From: a virus
Strand: one strand, 5' to 3'
DNA length: 47,939 bases
Virus record (IMG/VR): IMGVR_UViG_3300025101_000038
Location: 1 to 47,939 of that record
Shown one piece after another: positions 16,962 to 41,438 of the stretch; within the stretch, counting starts at the first letter, position 1, and the number at the start of each line of letters is the position of its first letter. A model generated the notes under the pieces. The model searched no databases and was not told the origin of the DNA. It worked only from the letters and a program-made list of their open reading frames with translations. Made by a program: the position numbers and the translations under genes.

Positions 16962-17632
16962 GCTAGATGTAAAGTTATTTAACGAAGATCACATCGTGTA
17001 CTACACGTAGATCACAGTGCCATGGCACATGGTTCATGGGTATGTGTGTGTGTAACCCAGTTCGGATTGTGATGGGGGAAGATGTTTTGACGATGAACTC
17101 TGGACCATGGACCTAGATCTGATCTGATTTCCGATCGCATGTGGTTCCTGGACCATGGGATTGTGATCGGGTGCCATGATTTGATGATTGTGATCCTATT
17201 GCCCTATTGACGATTGTCCATAATTCATGGTTCTTTGTCCTTTCCTCAAGTATTTTGTGCCTTGTGTCAGAGTCCGTGGTTTCCTGGTTTCTTATATAGG
17301 GTCTAGAATACCTGTAAATCATACTCCAATTATCTTTCCCATGCTTTATCTGCACCATGCACCACGACCCAAACACCACCCATTCTCACCCTATTACCAA
17401 GAAACAGCCAATAGGTCGCTAATAGGGTAGCCAATAGGTCAAGAAAAGCGATGTACATCAGTGCTTCTAGACTCATGCCTATTAGCGTATTAGCAAATCA
17501 GAGATATTTTAAGAAAAATGTTTTATAAAATTGGTGAGACAATAATAAGAAAGTGGTGTGAGAGAGTATTAACCCTAACTCCCTCACACCGTCACAGACA
17601 ATTTGGGAGGGTCTGTGACTAGCTACTAAAAC
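16962..17632. other. Non-coding region with GATC repeats, palindromes and GCTAATAGG words
   Basis: Short ORFs here on both strands lack ribosome sites and any protein-like composition. Visible structure: CGTGTA-C-TACACG (16995-17007), palindrome GTGCCATGGCAC (17017-17028), TGGCACATGGTTCATG (17023-17038), GGGGGAAGATGTTTTGA (17074-17090), GATCTGATC (17116-17124), and from 17395 onward CCAATAGGTC twice, GCTAATAGG (17418-17426) and its inverse (17478-17486). Candidate origin, packaging or regulatory region. Confidence 0.5.
17555..17619. repeat. Two adjacent strong hairpins
   Basis: GGTGTGAG (17555-17562) pairs with CTCACACC (17583-17590); the next base begins GTCACAGAC (17591-17599) pairing with GTCTGTGAC (17611-17619). 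They lie just after the stop of the 17633 gene and may form a tandem terminator or protect the 3' end of the early mRNA. T-runs after them are weak. Confidence 0.6.
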
Positions 17633-27366: not shown

Positions 27367-27657
27367 TTAGTGAAGACTGTCTTCTTCGTCTCTAAAATCA
27401 GTTCCGAAATGATAACTCAAAGCAAGATCCATTGCGGAATGCATCACCTCTCTTAAATTATCTTCTTCAAATACATGACCACTTGGTACAGTGGTTTCAA
27501 AAAAATCTATAGCTGATTGAACAGCAGCAAATAAAAATGCTGCAGGCACCACGCTATCTGGTGCTTCTATATTTTCTGATATGTGTTTTGACTCTTCGAC
27601 AAGAAGCCGAGCTAACTCTTCAGTTAGCTCAGACATCTCGTCGAAAGTCATAGCCAT
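27367..27657 (-). CDS. Small acidic protein, unknown
   Basis: 96 residues, helical, many Glu/Ala (MSELTEELARLLVEESKHISENIEAPD). Overlaps the DUF932 gene start/stop by one base, so it is co-translated with it. No family recognised. Confidence 0.7.
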   Translation of the reverse strand: MAMTFDEMSELTEELARLLVEESKHISENIEAPDSVVPAAFLFAAVQSAIDFFETTVPSGHVFEEDNLREVMHSAMDLALSYHFGTDFRDEEDSLH

Positions 27658-28685
27658 TATGCAGCTTTGGCATACTCCAGAGCTTTTGATATAGCTTTCT
27701 GCTTAAGTGATGCACGACTACCAAACCACGCATTATGTAATGCTGCGTCTCTGTCATGACCCCACTTATGATCAACTATAAAAGTGACAGCATTAGCAGC
27801 ACCCCACCAAGTACCCTTAGAGGACTTGAGGTTAGCTCCTGGCTGTTCTTCTAAAGCTTGATGTACCATTGCTGGTACACGCTTAAACTCATCAACCATT
27901 GATTGACGTGTTGCTATAGCTTTTATATCACTCATTTGCTCCATATTCTTTTGCTGTTCCAATAATTCTGGTTGAAATAGCTCAGATATATATGATACTA
28001 CATTTTGTGACGTATAGTTCTTAGAACTTAAGAACTCGGCAGACTCTTTAAAGTCTTTCATACGATCACCAGCGATACCTAGTGCTTCCTCTGCAGACTT
28101 AAATACATCCGCATCAAGAGCCGTTAAATGAGGCATCTTAAATGAAGGTCTAGTCTTATCTGCTAAAGCATAGGTAAGAGTGTTGTTACAAACTACCCTA
28201 ATAGGTGTAAACCTAATCTCGTTAGCTTTGCCCCACTTATGAGATACAGAAACTAGTAAATAACCTAGTACTCTGTCATCTCCAGGAAGCGTAAAACCAT
28301 CATTGATTTTAGCTAAGCCCCAGACTTGTTCACCACCTTTTAAGGCACCAGCTGTATCCATCGACATATCGCCTACGCTAGTAAATTTCTCAAAAAATTT
28401 AAAAGCGTCAGCATTTTGTGACGGTACAAACTTTGGACCACAAGGACCAAAGGTTTTGTTATCACTATCTCTTACTAGAACGTAATAATCATTAACAGGT
28501 ATAACCTCTTTACTATTATCTACGCTTGGCTCAGAGTGTGTGAATAAATGCCTTTTACTTACTGTCCAATCAAGTCCAGCAGCAACTAGCATTTCATCAG
28601 GGGTAAGGTTATCTTCAACCTTAACACCTAATCCGTGCCAGGGAACTTCCCCAGCATAAGCCATTGTTTCTACGGCATGTGCCAT
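27657..28685 (-). CDS. DUF932 protein
   Basis: 342 residues. The start MAHAVETMAYAGEVPWHGLG is the hallmark of the DUF932 (phage/plasmid-like TIGR03299) family; other blocks fit, such as VVCNNTLTYALAD (~170) and the C-terminal TWWGAANAVTFIVDHKWG ... AWFGS. Common in phages and plasmids; function unknown, possibly DNA or replication related. GGAGG site. Confidence 0.85.
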   Translation of the reverse strand: MAHAVETMAYAGEVPWHGLGVKVEDNLTPDEMLVAAGLDWTVSKRHLFTHSEPSVDNSKEVIPVNDYYVLVRDSDNKTFGPCGPKFVPSQNADAFKFFEKFTSVGDMSMDTAGALKGGEQVWGLAKINDGFTLPGDDRVLGYLLVSVSHKWGKANEIRFTPIRVVCNNTLTYALADKTRPSFKMPHLTALDADVFKSAEEALGIAGDRMKDFKESAEFLSSKNYTSQNVVSYISELFQPELLEQQKNMEQMSDIKAIATRQSMVDEFKRVPAMVHQALEEQPGANLKSSKGTWWGAANAVTFIVDHKWGHDRDAALHNAWFGSRASLKQKAISKALEYAKAA

Positions 28686-29591: not shown

Positions 29592-29871
29592 TTTTACTTT
29601 TTATGAGTCGTATACCATTTTCCCTGAGCCATCCTCTCAATACATCATTATGTATATCTGGATATCTTTCTTTGACTTTTTTGCAGACCTCATTATATAC
29701 TCTTAAACCCTTGTAGTAATCACTATGTCCTAACCTGCACATACGAATTATTTGCCATACCCTCTGTTTTGTAATTTTATATTTCATACCTATCTCCTCT
29801 AAAGTAGCATCAGAATTTTTGTATATCATATAGATATTGAAGTACATTCTTTTTTTATCTTGCCGTTTCAT
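29551..29871 (-). CDS. Helix-turn-helix protein, sigma region-4-like
   Basis: 106 residues. ATLEEIGMKYKITKQRVWQII (~22-42) closely follows the sigma-factor region 4 HTH pattern (TLEEIG...IT..RV.QI). No region 2 is present. It could redirect host RNA polymerase through the -35 box or act as a repressor; both are inference. Coupled to the nucleotidyltransferase gene. Confidence 0.7.
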   Translation of the reverse strand: MKRQDKKRMYFNIYMIYKNSDATLEEIGMKYKITKQRVWQIIRMCRLGHSDYYKGLRVYNEVCKKVKERYPDIHNDVLRGWLRENGIRLIKSKNGSEISTSNNKLV

Positions 29872-30277
29872 TTGTTATATTCTCCCTTAAAGAAGTACTA
29901 GAAAATTCATGTTGTCTAGAGTTATAATAAATTTCTTTATTAGAGCATGAGTTATTAAACTCTGTCCAACCAGTAAATGCTTTTTCTTTATATTCCTCCC
30001 CTATTATTCTTATATCCCACCTTACCATATTCAGTAGGTTCAATAAATCTTGCTCTGTTTCATAACAAATTATTTCGTCCACATATCTACAACCTTTTAA
30101 TTGTATTTGTCTTTCTATCAAACTTTGCACAGGTTTATTTTTATTTGATCTTTCTACGCTAGGGTCAGTGTGTAGTCCTACAATTAAATAGTCACAGACA
30201 CCTTTAGCTTCTTCTAACATAGCAACATGTCCTGCGTGCAATAAATCAAAAGCACTAAATGTTATACCTATCTTCAT
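29855..30277 (-). CDS. Cytidylyltransferase-like nucleotidyltransferase
   Basis: 140 residues. MKIGITFSAFDLLHAGHV (HxGH at 14-17), a Rossmann-type core, and a C-terminal FSSTSLRE (the ISSTxIR equivalent) identify the TagD/glycerol-3-phosphate cytidylyltransferase family: CTP plus a phosphate compound gives a CDP-alcohol. In a phage it could feed envelope, glycan or DNA-modification chemistry; substrate unknown. ATG overlaps the polymerase gene stop (ATGA). Confidence 0.85.
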   Translation of the reverse strand: MKIGITFSAFDLLHAGHVAMLEEAKGVCDYLIVGLHTDPSVERSNKNKPVQSLIERQIQLKGCRYVDEIICYETEQDLLNLLNMVRWDIRIIGEEYKEKAFTGWTEFNNSCSNKEIYYNSRQHEFSSTSLRENITNETAR

Positions 30278-32145
30278 TTAAAATAATCTTTATAATTTTC
30301 TATCTCTCCCCAGCTCTTACCTATCTCAGCATCTACTTTATTAGGTACATTGATTTTTACACAGTCTCTCATAACCTCTATGACTTTTTCACATTCCTGT
30401 TTATCTTTAACAGATATATTTAACTCGTCATGCACTTGAGTATGTGCGAGTATGCCTTCTTTGTGTAAATCTAACATAGCTTTTTTAGTCATGTCTGCTG
30501 CTGACCCTTGTATAAGTCGATTCATAGCTTTATATGTAAAAGCCCTTTTAAGCCCTTTTCCATACGTTTCGAGGGCTTTTTCGTAGGGGTAAGGGGTATC
30601 CCTATACGACATAGGTTCGTAAAGGTTAAAGCGACACTTACGTCCTAGGATAGTCTTTATATAACCCCTATTTGACCCTAACCTAGCACAAGTATCTCGT
30701 AGACCACGGATAAAAGGTACTCGTTCATGATACTGATCAAATAGTATTTGACCCTCTTCTTCACTAATACCTAATTGACGTATGAGTTTATCTTTACCCA
30801 TACCATAACTCAAACCTAGATTTATATTCTTAGCTTCCTTACGACTTATATTAGCCATGTCTGCTACTATCTGATGAAAGTCTGCATCATCTGTGTAAGC
30901 ATCTGCTGCCTCTTGTGCACCCTCTTGTTTAGTAAGTAGCGAGTAATGTACTGTAAGTCTAGGCTCTTGTTGAGAGTAATCAAAACAACCCCAGTGACAG
31001 TCTTCTTCTGGTATAAATAAACTTCTTATCAAACTACCTATTTCTGGATCACGAGCTGGTACTTGTTGTAGGTTAGGATTGCTACAACTAAACCTTCCTG
31101 TGACTGTACCTCCATCATCTGACCTTAAGGGGTGTAGTTCTCCATGTATTCTACCGTCTACCTCATGGTCTAAAATCATTTTATCTATAAAAGTAGTTCT
31201 AGCTTTATTGAATTTTCTAGCCCTAGCTATCGCTAATGGTAATTTATGGTCATGTGCCTCTAGCCAAGCAGAAGTAAAACTCGGTGCATTTAGTTTTGGT
31301 GATCTAGGATAATCTAAACCAGCTCTATCAAATACTTGTGCGACTGATGCTGCTGCCCATAAGTCAGGGGTAATACCATACCAATTTTTTATTTGACTTA
31401 ATATCTTTTGTTCTTTACTCTTTAACTCCTGACTAACTCTATCAGCTTTATCTAAATCGACTCTTACACCACGTCTCCTCATCTCTATAAGTACCCTTAT
31501 TAAAGATGATTCTAGTTTATATATTTCACTAACCTCTTCTTCTTTTATTTTTTCTTTTAAATTTTGCCATAACCTGTAGGTAAGGTCAGCGTCTTGCTCA
31601 CCATACATGCCAACATATTTAGGCTCTAATTTATACATCTCTGATTTAGGGTTTAGCCCAAATGCTTCTGCTGCCTCTGTTAAAAGTTTTTCATCTTTTA
31701 ATTCACCCATAAACCTTTCGCCTAAACTATTGAGAGAGTATCTCCTTTCATTTTCATTTAATAAAGGTGCAGCAATCATAGTGTCTTGTACAGTACCATT
31801 AACAGTAAAGCCCTCATAAGTAAGCCACCCTAAATCATACTGTGCGTTATGAAATACTTTATCGTTGTCATGCTCTAACTGTTTAGCTAACCATTTATAA
31901 ACTACTCCTCTATCTAGATTAGCCCCATAATGATGAGCCACAGGGAAATAACCTTTCCAACCTTCTGTAGCTATACCTACTCCAATTATTTCTCCTTGCT
32001 TACAAGCCCAGCTCGGACCATGAGTCATGAGTAATGGGTCTCTAGTTTCTAAATCAATAGCTATCTCTTTAGCTTGTGTTAAATCAGGGAAACTATCTGG
32101 GGGTGTCCAGTCGGACTCAGGTGGAAAGAAACTTTTTTGATCCAT
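30274..32145 (-). CDS. polA: DNA polymerase A with 3'-5' exonuclease
   Basis: 623 residues, a phage-size PolA without the 5' nuclease. Exonuclease: DLE (Asp31, Glu33), HNAQYD (Asp104), YGEQD (Tyr181, Asp185). Polymerase: TGRFSCSNPNLQQVPAR (~349-365), motif A CFDYSQQEPRL (Asp389), motif B RKEAKNINLGLSYG (Arg435, Lys439, Leu443, Tyr447), motif C VHDE (Asp573). Leu443 is at the position of E. coli Phe762. It should copy the genome, with the AEP primase and helicases nearby as partners. Confidence 0.93.
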   Translation of the reverse strand: MDQKSFFPPESDWTPPDSFPDLTQAKEIAIDLETRDPLLMTHGPSWACKQGEIIGVGIATEGWKGYFPVAHHYGANLDRGVVYKWLAKQLEHDNDKVFHNAQYDLGWLTYEGFTVNGTVQDTMIAAPLLNENERRYSLNSLGERFMGELKDEKLLTEAAEAFGLNPKSEMYKLEPKYVGMYGEQDADLTYRLWQNLKEKIKEEEVSEIYKLESSLIRVLIEMRRRGVRVDLDKADRVSQELKSKEQKILSQIKNWYGITPDLWAAASVAQVFDRAGLDYPRSPKLNAPSFTSAWLEAHDHKLPLAIARARKFNKARTTFIDKMILDHEVDGRIHGELHPLRSDDGGTVTGRFSCSNPNLQQVPARDPEIGSLIRSLFIPEEDCHWGCFDYSQQEPRLTVHYSLLTKQEGAQEAADAYTDDADFHQIVADMANISRKEAKNINLGLSYGMGKDKLIRQLGISEEEGQILFDQYHERVPFIRGLRDTCARLGSNRGYIKTILGRKCRFNLYEPMSYRDTPYPYEKALETYGKGLKRAFTYKAMNRLIQGSAADMTKKAMLDLHKEGILAHTQVHDELNISVKDKQECEKVIEVMRDCVKINVPNKVDAEIGKSWGEIENYKDYFK

Positions 32146-32450
32146 TACTTACCGATATACTCTTTTCGGTTAGTCATGTGACCTTCTACTAATAACAAGT
32201 ATCTCCTTAAATCCTGTATATCATCTAATATACCTGTAGAACTAGGGTCATCTGCTATAGTTTTAAATATGTCGTAGCCGTTCTTTTTACACTGATTTTC
32301 TATCCTATCAAATTTTCTAGCTAACATCATAAACGCACCAACACCACCACGAGAACGCCAACTATCACCATAACTTATTTGGGCTTCCTCTAGCTTTTCT
32401 ACATCAGTGTGTGCTAGTAGTTTTATTAAATTAAAATTAGATCCACTCAT
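32145..32450 (-). CDS. Phage protein resembling Nmad1/DUF1599
   Basis: 101 residues. The blocks QISYGDSWRSRGGVGAFMMLARKFDRIE and LDDIQDLRRYLLLVEGHM are well conserved in this phage family and resemble nucleotide-modification-associated domain 1 (all-helical, MazG-like shape with acidic helices). It overlaps the polymerase stop by one base. Possible dNTP-modification or house-cleaning role; resemblance is moderate. Confidence 0.5.
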   Translation of the reverse strand: MSGSNFNLIKLLAHTDVEKLEEAQISYGDSWRSRGGVGAFMMLARKFDRIENQCKKNGYDIFKTIADDPSSTGILDDIQDLRRYLLLVEGHMTNRKEYIGK

Positions 32451-32452
32451 AA

Positions 32453-33139
32453 TTAATACTCCTCATATTTTTCTCTGCACATATTCTGCTTACCGAAATA
32501 ACACCACTTACACTTCCACTTAGAAGGTTTAGCAGGAAACTCTGTAGCTTCTGTCATTTCTACAGCTCTTATGTGTATTTTATCTCTTTTGATATTTATA
32601 CTCTCTTGAGTATAAATGTATCTATCTATCTTACCATGATCTAAATACCACATTTCCGTGATAATTTTTTCTAACTCAGGGTATCTCTTTAAAGCTATTC
32701 CTCCATATAATTCACATTGTTCTTTATGTGCATCTTGATTACCTTCATATCTACCTGTTTTAAAATCAATGACTCTAGCTTCTGTTGAGTTTCCTTCGTC
32801 ATAGACGAAAGCATCTACTTTAGCCCTGCCCCAAGTATCATTATCAAACCAACCTGTTTGATCCCAATCTTTAGTTATAGCCCAGTCACTCTCACATGTT
32901 ACCTGACCATATTCATGTAGTTCTTTTAATTTTACAAACGCTTCTTCAAACTCTTTGAGTTCTTTAGGTAGTTCATCAAACCTACCACGAATATATTCCT
33001 CGCATAATTTATGCATATCTTTACCACGATCCATGGCAGGACTTCCAGGCTCTTTCATTTTCTTTATAAATTTAAACTCAGCTTGTTTAGGACACTTCTC
33101 GTAACAACTAAGACGACTATACGACCATTGACCAATCAT
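32453..33139 (-). CDS. PD-(D/E)XK exonuclease, RecB/Cas4-like with possible Fe-S cluster
   Basis: 228 residues. SYSRLSCYEKCPKQAEF (start of RecB-like nucleases), GRAKVDAF (Asp109), VIDFKTGR (Asp125, Lys127) form the active site. Cys16 with Cys200, Cys203 and Cys211 (CKWC ... MC) matches the Cys layout of AddB/Cas4 Fe-S nucleases. It likely resects DNA ends in recombination or degrades host DNA. Spacing to neighbours is 2-12 bases. Confidence 0.85.
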   Translation of the reverse strand: MIGQWSYSRLSCYEKCPKQAEFKFIKKMKEPGSPAMDRGKDMHKLCEEYIRGRFDELPKELKEFEEAFVKLKELHEYGQVTCESDWAITKDWDQTGWFDNDTWGRAKVDAFVYDEGNSTEARVIDFKTGRYEGNQDAHKEQCELYGGIALKRYPELEKIITEMWYLDHGKIDRYIYTQESINIKRDKIHIRAVEMTEATEFPAKPSKWKCKWCYFGKQNMCREKYEEY

Positions 33140-33151
33140 AGATTCTCCTAT

Positions 33152-34201
33152 TTATTTTATTCTTCTAGATAGCCATCTAAAGCAAGCTTCCATCCAATCA
33201 TCAGCTTTACAATGTTGTATTTCTATAAGTGCTTCTTCCTTACTCTCCTCTTTAGAGAGATACCAAGCATCTTGTATAGGTACTGCGACGTCAGTGAAAA
33301 ATGGATCTTTGAATTCCATTTGCTGAAAAGGTTTTCTAGTAAAAAACATAATTAAGTCTGCTTCCCAATCACGAAAGTCTACACTTACCATTGGATAGGG
33401 ATTTACTTCATCTAGTTTATACGGATTGTGATTAATTAATAGCTTTATTGTGTAATAATCAAAAGAGTCTATTTGTAGTAATTTTTCTCTCATAGGCTCA
33501 TATACATTTAAGTACGCATGATAATTATTACTCACTTGATAATACTTACCCATTCTTATACCTGTTGCTGCAGCTACGAACTCATGTAACATTGACATGT
33601 GTACCACGTTTGCTCCATATGCACCCCAGATAATATCATTTGACCTATTTGATACTGTCATATCGAGACGAGGACTGTAGCCGTCTATGTGTACAGTTTT
33701 AAAGTATATAGTCGTATTACAGGGTACGTCAGCTCCATCTCGCCCTAAATCGCCCACAGCGTCCCACATTTGTAGGACACAGCGTCTATCGTAAGGGTCG
33801 TGTTTAAGTCTATCAATAATAATTCTTACTTGGTCTTTACCAGCAAAATCTTTAAATATAGGGTCTTTGAAATAACTTCTCCATCTCCAGCCATACGCTC
33901 CCCACAATGTTTCACCATCATCACTATATCTACTCATACCTTTATTGTAGTACTCCATGGTAGCTAAGTCATTAAAACCAGCCAGCATCCATAAACCTTC
34001 CATAAAATGGAAAAAGGGGTTAGCGTCTCTATCTGGGTCAAATAAAACTCTCTCGCTAGGGTTAGCATAAACTGTAGTAACTGGTTCTTCTACAGTGATG
34101 ACTTTACCGTTTCTAGTATTTTCTATATGACCATTCGAGTCAAGTAAATCCATACCTCTTAAAAAGGCATCGTTTACATTTCTACAGTTTAATGTGTGCA
34201 T
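33152..34201 (-). CDS. ThyA-like thymidylate synthase or dUMP/dCMP hydroxymethylase
   Basis: 349 residues. VPCNTTIYF carries the catalytic Cys161; NRSNDIIWGAYGANVVHMS carries the nucleotide-binding Arg186-Ser187, Asp189 and Asn198. In standard ThyA the site reads PCHxxxQF and QRSxDxxxGxPFN; here His is replaced by Asn162 and one residue is inserted before the last Asn. Retained Asn198 favours a dUMP substrate over dCMP. It may add methyl or hydroxymethyl. The adjacent hmdU-kinase-type gene makes hydroxymethylation plausible. Confidence 0.75.
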   Translation of the reverse strand: MHTLNCRNVNDAFLRGMDLLDSNGHIENTRNGKVITVEEPVTTVYANPSERVLFDPDRDANPFFHFMEGLWMLAGFNDLATMEYYNKGMSRYSDDGETLWGAYGWRWRSYFKDPIFKDFAGKDQVRIIIDRLKHDPYDRRCVLQMWDAVGDLGRDGADVPCNTTIYFKTVHIDGYSPRLDMTVSNRSNDIIWGAYGANVVHMSMLHEFVAAATGIRMGKYYQVSNNYHAYLNVYEPMREKLLQIDSFDYYTIKLLINHNPYKLDEVNPYPMVSVDFRDWEADLIMFFTRKPFQQMEFKDPFFTDVAVPIQDAWYLSKEESKEEALIEIQHCKADDWMEACFRWLSRRIK

Positions 34202-34977
34202 TATTCTCCTATTCCTTCTTTATATGCTTTTTTCCAACCTATGATTACATCCTTACGAGGTAATCCGTTCCAAGCAGTTTTAGTTTGTTTCTCTACTACC
34301 TTAACGCATGTAGGGTGTAAAGAGTGTAATCTTTCAGCACCTTCATTATGAACATCAATAGTTCTCCACTCACTACAACCACCGTCAGCGTTAGATGATT
34401 TTTGACCTTGTGCATAATAAAAACTTACCTTACATGCTTTACCTTTTCTCAATAGTTGTAAAGCTATATCAAAATCTTCCATTACCCTAGTCCTGCCCCA
34501 CTCTATGTCATCAGGAAACTCGTTTAAGTTATAAGCGAGTACTCTCATGTATCGAGTATTTTCTACAGATAAATCTTCTACCCTATTATTACCTTCCCTA
34601 GCACTTACACCCACGTGGGCATAACCTTGACTAAGCCACTCGTCTAATAAACCAAACATAGCAGGATACTCATCTGACTCTAAGTATCGTAAGTGCCAGT
34701 CGGTAGGGCTTTTACGAATGTAAAAACGTAAATCATCATCTAGCATAACTATATGGGGGTCATCACTATGCTCTATAATATATTTTCGTTTAGCCCCTAT
34801 GCCTATACAGTCCTCTGGGACTACCATTTTAGGTGTGTTTTGATATTTAGTGTACAGGTGTTGCTCATCATGATCAATAACTAATGTTACATCACCATTA
34901 GCTTGCATCCATTGGGGAAACCATTTTAAAGTTTCTTGATTAGTGGGTCTACCACGAGTAGGAATATATATTTTCAT
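34201..34977 (-). CDS. Glycosyltransferase-like protein (GT-A, TAGT type)
   Basis: 258 residues. Start KIYIPTRGRP, then VTLVIDHDEQHLYTKY, GIGAKRKYIIEH and HIVMLDDDLRFY (DDD at 80-82) follow the TET-associated glycosyltransferase pattern described for phage DNA modification. Later VMEDFDIALQLL supplies a second acidic site. It might transfer a sugar to modified bases. The overlap with both neighbours ties it to the modification genes. An ordinary GT2 enzyme is the alternative. Confidence 0.7.
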   Translation of the reverse strand: MKIYIPTRGRPTNQETLKWFPQWMQANGDVTLVIDHDEQHLYTKYQNTPKMVVPEDCIGIGAKRKYIIEHSDDPHIVMLDDDLRFYIRKSPTDWHLRYLESDEYPAMFGLLDEWLSQGYAHVGVSAREGNNRVEDLSVENTRYMRVLAYNLNEFPDDIEWGRTRVMEDFDIALQLLRKGKACKVSFYYAQGQKSSNADGGCSEWRTIDVHNEGAERLHSLHPTCVKVVEKQTKTAWNGLPRKDVIIGWKKAYKEGIGE

Positions 34978-35834
34978 AGGTATTGTGCCTCATTAAATTT
35001 TGGGTATTTATCGTATTTATATTTTGCTCTAGGTCTACCCTCACCTAACCTAGTTCTCTCATATTTATCAAACTCACATAAACTGTGCTCTATCTCTCTC
35101 ATCTCTAGCTTTGGTACATGTGGCTCTAAGTATTTATCTGCTACTTGTAAAAGTTTATACATCTCTGCGTTCCAGTCATGTTTGTGCGAGTCCCAAGTAA
35201 GCGTTCTTAAATTCATTCTATTTAATCCACGCTTTGCTCCTGGACCTGGATTTGCCCAAGTATAAAGATCACGAGCGTTCCTTAATAAATGAGTGTGTCT
35301 TAAATCTGTAACAACTTCGTATGACATAAATCCACTAAATCCTGCGTAAGGAAGATAATTTTTCCAAGTATCTTCTAAACTACTAGAGACTATCTCTGGG
35401 TGGTTATTATATAAAGGTGTAAGTATTTTGTCTACTGTTTGTTCTATTTTAGTACCACCTAAAGTACCTGTCAACATATAAGCACCTGTGTAAACTTTTT
35501 TCCCACTATCCATTCTATCCTGCATTATAGCTTTTACCTTTTCTGGTTGCCAATCCTCAGGGAAACCTATCTCTTCTAGGGTGGATGGCCAATTTATTTG
35601 ACGAGCCACGGACATTGAGAAAGCTAAGTTAGGGTGGTCAAAGTAAGGCTCTCTCCAGTTTGTTCTTACCCATTCTGTGACTGTGTCTAGTTCTCTAAAC
35701 ACATTACAAAAACTATAAGTTTTTAATATCTTATCTTCTGTCCACGGTGGATGAAGACCGTTTTTTCTCCTTAAATATATTTGGTGTCTTTCATTTATGT
35801 AGTTAAAAAACCCTTCTACTTTATCTTGTACCAT
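34974..35834 (-). CDS. 5-hmdU DNA kinase-type helical protein
   Basis: 286 residues, helical. NERHQIYLRRKNGLHPPWTE, DKILKTYSFCNVFRELDTVTEW and the later GFSGFMSYEVVTDLRHT fit the helical domain known as HMUDK_hel (alpha-glutamyl/putrescinyl thymine pyrophosphorylase clade) in thymidine-hypermodifying phages. Such proteins phosphorylate or activate hydroxymethyl-dU in DNA before a second group is added. Overlaps the GT gene by 4 bases. Recognised by motif; not verified by search. Confidence 0.75.
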   Translation of the reverse strand: MVQDKVEGFFNYINERHQIYLRRKNGLHPPWTEDKILKTYSFCNVFRELDTVTEWVRTNWREPYFDHPNLAFSMSVARQINWPSTLEEIGFPEDWQPEKVKAIMQDRMDSGKKVYTGAYMLTGTLGGTKIEQTVDKILTPLYNNHPEIVSSSLEDTWKNYLPYAGFSGFMSYEVVTDLRHTHLLRNARDLYTWANPGPGAKRGLNRMNLRTLTWDSHKHDWNAEMYKLLQVADKYLEPHVPKLEMREIEHSLCEFDKYERTRLGEGRPRAKYKYDKYPKFNEAQYL

Positions 35835-36283
35835 GATGGTTTACCTCGTTTAGTCCATTTCGCAAATACTTTTTCGCCTATATAATAATTTCTATATGCC
35901 TCGACTGCATTCCCCTGAACCTTATATTGATCAGGCATGCATTGTGGATGTTCTTGTAGCCCTTTACTTTTTATCAAAGGGTTAGGCAGTGACATAATAA
36001 CATCGTATGATTTATGACATACGTTTTTATTATATCGCCACATAAATTCTTCATTGAGACAAATTAACAAGTCTTTCAGCCATAGCCAATTATCTAAACT
36101 GGCTGCAGACCATATAGTACAAGGGTGTTTCATATGTACAGGTCTGTAAGGTGCTGTTTGATCATTAAGCCAGAAACTTGTACAAAGCATTTGAGCTGAC
36201 TCTAGAATCATTTTAGACACATGTTTATCACAGTGCATTTCTGCTGCAGTCTGTATATTATCGTCTAATTTAAATATATTCAC
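35816..36283 (-). CDS. Conserved phage protein, MNIF-LD family
   Basis: 155 residues. NIFKLDDNIQTAAEMHCDKHVSKMILESAQML, then PVHMKHPCTIWSAAS, LLICLNEEF, MPDQYKV and NAVEAYRNYYIGEKV, are blocks of a phage-wide family often beside DNA-modification genes (recalled). A glycosylase or base-processing role has been suggested for relatives, but I cannot confirm it. Overlaps the hmdU-kinase-type gene by 19 bases. Confidence 0.65.
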   Translation of the reverse strand: MNIFKLDDNIQTAAEMHCDKHVSKMILESAQMLCTSFWLNDQTAPYRPVHMKHPCTIWSAASLDNWLWLKDLLICLNEEFMWRYNKNVCHKSYDVIMSLPNPLIKSKGLQEHPQCMPDQYKVQGNAVEAYRNYYIGEKVFAKWTKRGKPSWYKIK

Positions 36284-40856: not shown

Positions 40857-41438
40857 TTATACGCCACTTCTGAAGGTAAGGTTGATTCTCTCTCCACAAC
40901 CTTCCATATCTAATACTGCGTGTGTACTTCTCATTTGAGATTTACCATCAAATATAAAAACGTCGCCATCTTCCATCAAATAATGTGTTAAACTTTTTTT
41001 AGGAACATACTTAGTATTTATTTCACTAGTGTCTACTTTTTCTTTTATATCTTTTTCATACTCAAGCCATTCGAAAACTCTAGGTGCACCAAGAGACACG
41101 GACAAAACTATATCGTTTTTAGTGGGTACTGTATCAGAATGGTGCGGTATGCCTTTACCTTCTGGTCCATAATATCCACACAAACAAAAATTAAACTTCA
41201 CTTCTTTTTTTAATTTATAACTTACCAAATGTTCAGCGTTTGATTTTATTACATACATAGGAGTAGACCACGGCTCAGGCTCATATAGTTTACCAGCATA
41301 TTCGAAAGGGCTATCGCCAAAGCCACGAGTTGGTCTGCCTACTACTTTTTTGCCTTTATACATGCGAACTCTTGGCTCGTCCCAAGTAGTAATACCACAA
41401 TCAAAACCTGTAAATTCTCCTTTTATAAATTCTATCAT
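40857..41438 (-). CDS. AlkB-like 2-oxoglutarate/Fe(II) dioxygenase
   Basis: 193 residues. FNFCLCGYYGPEGKGIPHHSD gives the H-x-D pair (His100, Asp102), STHAV the distal His173, and ERINLTFR the 2OG-binding Arg184 with Arg190, in AlkB order. AlkB enzymes oxidise damaged or methylated bases; relatives in phages also hydroxylate normal bases. DNA repair is the default call; a role in the base modification encoded nearby is possible. It has a TTTACT promoter about 100 bases upstream. Confidence 0.85.
   Translation of the reverse strand: MIEFIKGEFTGFDCGITTWDEPRVRMYKGKKVVGRPTRGFGDSPFEYAGKLYEPEPWSTPMYVIKSNAEHLVSYKLKKEVKFNFCLCGYYGPEGKGIPHHSDTVPTKNDIVLSVSLGAPRVFEWLEYEKDIKEKVDTSEINTKYVPKKSLTHYLMEDGDVFIFDGKSQMRSTHAVLDMEGCGERINLTFRSGV

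Follow-up and report, generated by a model that had tools for sequence, protein, structure and literature searches.

Which modified base does a virus make when a ThyA-like enzyme, a glycosyltransferase and a helical protein of a family named for a DNA kinase are encoded side by side, and the kinase itself is not found? The question is raised by a gene cluster on the minus strand of a 47,939-base virus record (IMG/VR IMGVR_UViG_3300025101_000038; the whole record is called the window here), in which an original prediction, made from the letters alone, had placed a contiguous thymidine hypermodification cassette at 32145-36283. From 36283 down to 29855 the genes follow in the order MNIF, HMUDK_hel, TAGT, ThyA-family enzyme, PDDEXK_1 nuclease, orf101, polymerase A and CTP_transf_like nucleotidyltransferase. 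We consider it probable that this cassette makes O-glycosylated 5-hydroxymethyl-2'-deoxyuridine (hydroxymethyl-dU) in phage DNA, and not an amino-modified thymine like that of Pseudomonas phage M6; most likely, the operon replaces thymine by hydroxymethyluracil and then attaches a sugar. The hypermodification that had been proposed thus retains a hydroxymethyl-dU-based core, to which protein families, active-site residues and a conserved operon point, and loses the M6-type pathway, for which neither the kinase nor an amino acid:DNA transferase (ADDT) was found.

The tight coupling of the genes was evident at four junctions, with ATGA overlaps between HMUDK_hel and TAGT and between DNA polymerase and CTP_transf, and TAATG overlaps between TAGT and ThyA and between orf101 and polymerase. 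The cassette as first described had nevertheless omitted a gene in its midst, the nuclease at 32453-33139. The three families on which the reading depends were correctly named, since HMUDK_hel, TAGT and the ThyA-family protein all exceed their own Pfam cut-offs.

Active site and predicted product of the ThyA-family enzyme

The ThyA-family enzyme (349 amino acids; 33152-34201, minus strand; Pfam Thymidylat_synt, E 1.1e-22; PHROG 5131, E 8.2e-113) carries the altered PCN site at residues 160-162, with C161-N162 encoded at 33721-33716 and a further asparagine, N198, at 33610-33608. It is 46% identical to M6 gp58, 30% to SPO1 gp29, whose record annotates it as dUMP hydroxymethylase, and 22% to Escherichia coli ThyA. 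A Cys-Asn active site is common to the window enzyme, SPO1 gp29 and M6 gp58, whereas E. coli ThyA has Cys-His, and in the same three phage proteins the loop ahead of the uracil-reading asparagine is longer by one residue. Asparagine at this position confers specificity for uracil and aspartate for cytosine, and two comparison enzymes agree: the CMP hydroxymethylase MilA has Asp at the same position, and the ThyA-family enzyme adjoining TAGT in the T-even-type phage HP3 combines Cys-Thr with Asp. The HP3 record names the latter thymidylate synthase; from its TAGT neighbourhood and from sister records, we infer a dCMP hydroxymethylase. When 160 distinct ThyA-family proteins from loci with HMUDK_hel were compared, 153 showed Cys-Asn together with the asparagine; of the other seven, five were read with a different residue following Cys (in one case, from locus L088, through a misreading of the pattern), one has Cys-Thr and Asp, and one is an unreadable fragment. 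On these residues, the window enzyme is a predicted dUMP hydroxymethylase.

The same residues bear on the proposal that TAGT acts on 5-hydroxymethylcytosine in T-even style, with the ThyA-family enzyme as a dCMP hydroxymethylase. It is chiefly from phages with hydroxymethylcytosine that TAGT is known, and in Microbacterium phage Morrigan, TAGT (42.5 bits, cut-off 27.5) and HMUDK_hel (111.8 bits for PF18723) are indeed accompanied by a ThyA-family enzyme that has Cys-Thr and Asp. The window enzyme, however, lacks the dCMP hydroxymethylase signature (Asp for Asn) and has Cys-Asn with Asn198, like the great majority of the proteins compared, while dCMP and CMP hydroxymethylases carry Asp; we regard a cytosine-based modification in this virus as very improbable. 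Because Morrigan pairs HMUDK_hel with a dCMP-type enzyme and other loci pair it with a uracil-type one, the presence of HMUDK_hel seems tied to the hydroxymethyl group and not to the base.

In the glycosylated hydroxymethyl-dU pathway that we favour, hydroxymethylation of dUMP by the ThyA-family enzyme, suggested by its active-site residues, would come first. The hydroxymethyl nucleotide would then be phosphorylated and incorporated by polymerase A (30274-32145, minus strand; PF00476, E 3.9e-59), replacing some or all of the thymine; hydroxymethyl-dUTP is known in phiW-14 infection (PMC5977210). Among the window open reading frames (ORFs), no dUTPase match was obtained, and the single match to an HD nucleotidase was weak (ORF starting at 17113, E 2.3e-4).

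TAGT, its predicted sugar and the search for a kinase

TAGT (GT-A glycosyltransferase, 258 amino acids; 34201-34977, minus strand; PF20691, E 3.8e-23, 82.9 bits against a cut-off of 27.5; PHROG 842, E 1.5e-50) has a DDD motif at residues 80-82, and D80, D81, D82 and D168 are invariant in 27 aligned sequences. We predict that it adds a sugar to 5-hydroxymethyl-dU in DNA: HMUDK_hel would present the flipped base, and TAGT would move a hexose onto the hydroxymethyl oxygen, the donor being probably UDP-glucose or else a sugar activated by the CTP_transf_like enzyme, and no kinase or amino-acid chemistry would follow. The product would resemble base J and would protect the DNA against restriction enzymes and against the DNA glycosylases that excise hydroxymethyluracil, several of which do not accept base J as a substrate (PMC6449724). 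The T4-type alpha-glucosyltransferase (alpha-GT) profile PF11440 had no match in 10 window-type records or in phage LuckyBarnes, while the HP3 control was matched; the profile for the beta-type enzyme (beta-GT, PF09198) matched nothing in any record searched and is uninformative.

The CTP_transf_like nucleotidyltransferase (29855-30277, minus strand; PF01467, E 1.2e-14; PHROG 7878, heptose adenylyltransferase-like, E 1.8e-35), which is the cytidylyltransferase at 29.9 kb once proposed as a participant, is a possible maker of the activated sugar, and this role gained some support. In a count over the 125 distinct loci that extend 6.5 kb or more beyond HMUDK_hel, the family was present in 24 of 62 glycosyltransferase-type loci and in none of the 54 methyltransferase-type, 3 kinase-type and 6 unlabelled ones. 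The difference between glycosyltransferase and methyltransferase types (Fisher p = 3.8e-8) is weak evidence, since the methyltransferase-type loci form one clade and are not independent. Two further kinds of neighbour were observed near the glycosyltransferases of other loci. A radical SAM/SPASM protein (family c39) lies between TAGT and ThyA in L082, L085 and L086, a position that hints at a further change of sugar or base, and FkbM-type methyltransferases stand near HMUDK_hel and a glycosyltransferase in L050, L054, L067, L068 and L231, where methylated sugars on the base could result.

The models of the kinase, ADDT and TAGT were searched in 43 records, hand-chosen for length and variety. 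Neither the 5-hydroxymethyl-dU kinase (PF18748) nor ADDT (PF18724) was matched anywhere in the window or in the complete sequence of a near-copy, G001, a 60-kb record 99.1-99.9% identical to the window across the shared 47 kb, and both models matched the M6 control. About 13 kb of G001 lie outside the window and hold 15 listed ORFs, which from their first 90 residues appear mostly structural, with one HNH-like and one peptidase-like protein; the family models applied to them were those of the searches named here, and the Pfam scan of the window comprised 10 ORFs. Across the 43 records, PF18748 was above its cut-off in M6, weak in the records of L088, L089 and L092, and without a match in the near relatives of the window; matches to PF18724 came from M6 and from the records that hold L088, L092 and L097. 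TAGT exceeded its cut-off in 26 of the 43 records, none of them with a PF18724 match. It is because kinase and amino-acid transferase were not found that an O-glycosylated 5-hydroxymethyl-dU is predicted.

A pathway of the M6 or ViI type, in which hydroxymethyl-dU is phosphorylated in DNA by the kinase and an amino acid or amine is then attached, would explain why the window shares both HMUDK_hel and the ThyA-family enzyme with M6 (46% identity each) and why the nearest solved fold of HMUDK_hel is that of the glycinyltransferase PUGT. A very divergent kinase could also escape detection, as three records with kinase-like genes fell below the Pfam cut-off. Against this stand the two negative searches and the fact that a kinase with TAGT inside 6 kb occurred in none of 228 distinct loci, and we give this pathway little credence.

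Partners and modelled fold of HMUDK_hel

The HMUDK_hel (aGPT-Pplase1) protein (286 amino acids; 34974-35834, minus strand; PF18723, E 6.5e-46, 157.4 bits against a cut-off of 25) is 46% identical to its M6 counterpart and served as the anchor for a survey of its partners. IMG/VR loci were collected with HMUDK_hel queries (21, then 80, of which 73 were new, giving 94; the second scan took the best 80 of at least 594 and so leans to near relatives), with a TAGT query (39), with a methyltransferase query (the best 80 of 123) and from a GTDB scan (73), giving 228 distinct loci after removal of duplicates by identical HMUDK_hel DNA only. Decorating enzymes were counted with four profiles when they lay at most 6 kb from HMUDK_hel on the same strand. 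The kinase, GT-B and FkbM profiles had at most 4-5 members each, and that of the kinase does match the kinases of M6, Pam3 and Rhizobium phage RHph_TM26, which adjoin HMUDK_hel or lie one gene off. ORF calling missed HMUDK_hel in at least L224, L241, L243 and L294.

HMUDK_hel, TAGT and the ThyA-family enzyme occurred together in 65 of the 94 HMUDK_hel-query loci, so the grouping is not due to chance; nine others had a class I methyltransferase (Methyltransf_23/11), and 20 had neither. This company also bears on a further alternative, that TAGT glycosylates the host surface or a virion component and that the other genes serve ordinary thymidylate metabolism and replication. Phage glycosyltransferases do often target surface sugars, as is generally known; yet the overlapping start and stop codons couple TAGT to HMUDK_hel and ThyA, the three keep company from locus to locus, and the ThyA-family protein of the window is without the Cys-His of E. 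coli thymidylate synthase, and we hold this to be the least probable of the explanations weighed here.

The TAGT-query set had HMUDK_hel in 37 of 39 loci and the methyltransferase in none, and the methyltransferase-query set had HMUDK_hel in 79 of 80, ThyA in 78 and TAGT in none. The loci lacking HMUDK_hel (L118 and L132 in the former, L165 in the latter) are all at contig ends, and the contig of L132 does carry HMUDK_hel (L076). A decorator was present in 159 of the 228 distinct loci (71 TAGT, 67 methyltransferase, 13 kinase and 8 GT-B glycosyltransferase), and no locus combined two kinds. For a tree of 82 HMUDK_hel proteins, of which 75 had a label, at least eight changes among the four kinds of partner are required; a branch with a support of 99 separates the methyltransferase type from the rest, and within well supported groups TAGT alternates with GT-B. 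The tree was a quick one, from which rows more than 0.88 similar and fragments below 230 amino acids had been removed beforehand, and it has long branches (L002, L136 and L088) and seven unlabelled rows. L050 and L067 have nearly the same operon, with TAGT in the one and a GT-B-type enzyme and a dUTPase-like ORF in the other; glycosyltransferases of two families here take each other's place beside the same HMUDK_hel. The GT-B name derives from one member, matched by Glyco_transf_4 below the cut-off (E 0.00058), and was given to two others, without a match, by eye. The class I methyltransferase family adjoins HMUDK_hel among the same replication genes (L019:7165-8004 and cluster 10, with 88 members), and may methylate hydroxymethyl-dU.

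Phages carrying HMUDK_hel are common in public viral contigs (at least 600 rows in one scan), and remote relatives were seen among archaeal genomes and bins of haloarchaea, Woesearchaeota, Nanoarchaeota and others (L247-L262, GTDB scan).

The AlphaFold2 model of HMUDK_hel (pLDDT 94.6, 86 sequences) was compared with solved structures, and the structural statements made here for HMUDK_hel and MNIF rest on a second aligner, VIA-align. The best aligned structure was 8z2n, PaMx11 gp46 or PUGT (Z 11.4, root-mean-square deviation (rmsd) 3.8, 216 residues aligned), the solved 5-phosphomethyl-dU glycinyltransferase of PaMx11. The next rows were mostly helix-hairpin-helix (HhH) DNA glycosylases at Z 10.3 or less, with MjOgg (3knt) at Z 10.3, rmsd 4.2 and 182 aligned, and human DUF2419, which is no DNA glycosylase, reached Z 9.5. 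A sequence search of solved structures with HMUDK_hel found nothing. On its modelled fold, HMUDK_hel may be an HhH-glycosylase-like, base-flipping protein that presents the hydroxymethyl base to a partner enzyme.

The resemblance to PUGT, a transferase, and 24 residues invariant in 86 sequences would also suit an HMUDK_hel that is itself a transferase, of amino acids or acyl groups for example, with TAGT as a separate tailoring enzyme or acting elsewhere. The kinase cassettes of M6 and Pam3, however, have a separate ADDT near HMUDK_hel, which argues that HMUDK_hel is not that transferase, and the phosphomethyl intermediate is not expected where there is no kinase. We judge this unlikely and prefer the presenting role. 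More tentatively than for the glycosylated product itself, we would suggest that HMUDK_hel might be a general base-presenting platform for 5-hydroxymethylpyrimidines with interchangeable decorators (kinase, GT-A or GT-B glycosyltransferase, class I methyltransferase), of which the window would be the GT-A form leading to a base J-like nucleotide, and the methyltransferase relatives might lead, for example, to 5-methoxymethyl-dU. We know of no organism from which the latter is recorded.

Several observations weigh against a TAGT that glycosylates hydroxymethyl-dU presented by HMUDK_hel. The TAGT of T2 and T6 adds a second glucose onto an existing one (PMC13216743), and the action on a bare hydroxymethyl group that we predict therefore lacks a precedent there. 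The part of HMUDK_hel as a partner is deduced from its neighbourhood and modelled fold; HMUDK_hel is all-helical, and middling Z scores are common among all-helical models; Foldseek alone gave no significant match for the model, and sequence profiles gave no link between HMUDK_hel and ADDT (probability 0.5). In L003, TAGT and the ThyA-family enzyme are present and HMUDK_hel was not found in the stretch taken, so TAGT may not need it. Given the dCMP-type enzyme of Morrigan, HMUDK_hel cannot be taken as a strict marker of uracil, and the Morrigan proteins were matched by the Pfam profiles alone, our custom TAGT and ThyA profiles having missed them. In Montesquieu, which encodes HMUDK_hel and ThyA, neither a glycosyltransferase nor a kinase is annotated within 5 kb, and 69 of the 228 loci had no decorator by the four profiles. 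Of these, 55 came from the GTDB scan, and many of the 55 are only remotely related (the GTDB part, 69 distinct loci, had eight kinases, three TAGT, three GT-B and 55 with none). Finally, no chemistry was found for the window phage or for any phage with HMUDK_hel and TAGT.

Neighbouring genes and known systems

The MNIF protein (35816-36283, minus strand) belongs to the family assigned to it (PHROG 624, E 4.3e-46), and its inclusion among the modification enzymes was set aside on account of a T4 endonuclease V-like fold and a wide spread. Its all-helical AlphaFold2 model (pLDDT 95.0) aligned to T4 endonuclease V (1enj) with Z 8.6, rmsd 3.7 and 117 of 137 residues, the next unrelated row being at Z 3.7; Foldseek alone gave no significant match for the model, and the sequence search of solved structures returned chance-level rows only. 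MNIF was present in 559 phage records, mainly of cyanophages, vibriophages and acinetophages, and one homologue is annotated endonuclease V. Judging from the model, MNIF is probably a DNA repair neighbour outside the pathway. It stood beside TAGT cassettes in 52 of 65 loci of the HMUDK_hel set and 34 of 39 of the TAGT set, and in 26 of 80 methyltransferase-set loci; the first of these counts may tell against a repair-only view.

An Nmad1-like protein had also been announced and was not confirmed. Its likeliest candidate, the 101-amino-acid orf101 (32145-32450, minus strand), is without a Pfam match, and the Pfam rows of 35 members of its family were at chance level (best E 0.013) and included no Nmad family; PF07659, which we take to be Nmad1 (library name DUF1599), had no match in 6 records. 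The orf101 profile aligned to the extension at the C-terminus of ThyA in LuckyBarnes (hhalign probability 79.5, E 1.5e-5, 35 columns) and also matched the long Montesquieu ThyA ORF, so that both phages have a ThyA-family protein with an orf101-type domain fused C-terminally to it (L002:8436-9989 and L295:5983-7533, respectively). A homologue in the kinase-type cassette of Pam3 is annotated 'nucleotide modification'. Because of these fusions and the Pam3 homologue, orf101 probably belongs to hydroxymethyl-dU metabolism, and a function in the nucleotide pool is our guess.

The PDDEXK_1 nuclease (Cas4/RecB-like; 32453-33139, minus strand; PF12705, E 1.3e-16; PHROG 69, exonuclease), present in 58 of 65 TAGT loci, would serve replication or recombination, with a part in modification as an unproven candidate role. 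The AlkB-like dioxygenase 5 kb away is indeed encoded at 40857-41438 (minus strand; AlkB-type 2-oxoglutarate-Fe(II) oxygenase, PF13532, E 1.6e-14), and the participation suggested for it appears optional. Such an enzyme was present in 25 of 65 TAGT loci and 47 of 80 methyltransferase-query loci, and as a source of the hydroxymethyl group it was rejected as unconserved and as unneeded, since the ThyA-family enzyme would supply that group. As regards a TET/JBP dioxygenase, the AlkB-type protein was the sole oxygenase checked among the 10 ORFs scanned in the window. In relatives, the AlkB-type gene shifts around the cassette, lying ahead of MNIF, after the nuclease or, as in the window, 5 kb off. 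Further along, a protein encoded at 27657-28685 of the window resembles LuckyBarnes gp34 (26% identity), which matches DUF932, and a similar DUF932-type protein (c24) lies two or three genes ahead of HMUDK_hel in several of L081-L096.

The window terminase is closest to those of pelagiphages (61.5% to HTVC027P, then 023Pt_psg01 and HTVC023P, in a range of 56-62%), from which we take the virus to be probably a bacteriophage of a marine setting. A gammaproteobacterial phage terminase is also near (60.7%), and the host is therefore not settled by these relatives. At the DNA level, a search with the operon matched 4 records, in polymerase and nucleotidyltransferase pieces only, and the polymerase A DNA had a local match to the polymerase of HTVC023P/027P. 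Pelagiphages of the HTVC023P type were described in 2022 as having thymidylate synthase, aG/PT-PPlase1, 5'-deoxynucleotidase and a putative glucosyltransferase together; according to the authors, partner genes of this kind may broaden the function (PMC9599517). That account, in the text available of it, is at annotation level and does not treat the absence of a kinase, the active-site residues, the exchange of partners or the product; relative to it, the exchange of partners and a glycosyl reading without a kinase are what is added here. A phrase search for glycosylated 5-hydroxymethyluracil in one literature collection gave no later report and PMC6449724 as the sole phage-related match, and nothing of use came from a search of the same collection for reports of such enzymes in viromes.

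If our reading is true, phages own a route to base J-like glycosylated hydroxymethyluracil, and a family named for the 5-hydroxymethyl-dU kinase is a shared adaptor used by other enzymes. Some, at least, of the solitary TAGTs, which occur in 288 of 753 phage genomes and have been called potential novel transferases (PMC13216743), would then also have a suggested function. The named phages LuckyBarnes and Morrigan, both with known hosts, make the prediction testable.

Among known systems, M6, with its 5-NedU cluster, likewise has a ThyA-family hydroxymethylase and HMUDK_hel near polymerase A, and differs in having the 5-hydroxymethyl-dU DNA kinase, ADDT and a radical SAM protein, in whose stead the window has TAGT. 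Brevibacterium phage LuckyBarnes has ThyA (a uracil-type enzyme), TAGT, TAGT and HMUDK_hel contiguous and no kinase match in its record; it differs in its two TAGTs and in the orf101-like domain fused to ThyA. In the T-even phages T2 and T6, the TAGT family (PF20691) acts, as in our prediction, on DNA-base sugars (PMC13216743, PMC13390438); that system, as these sources present it, is cytosine-based and uses TAGT after alpha-GT, whereas no alpha-GT was found here and the base enzyme is of the uracil type. The predicted product, a glycosylated hydroxymethyluracil, is that of base J in kinetoplastids, made there by the JBP oxidase and JGT (PMC6449724). For base J, thymine is oxidised within DNA (PMC6449724), whereas in the window the hydroxymethyl group would arise on the nucleotide.

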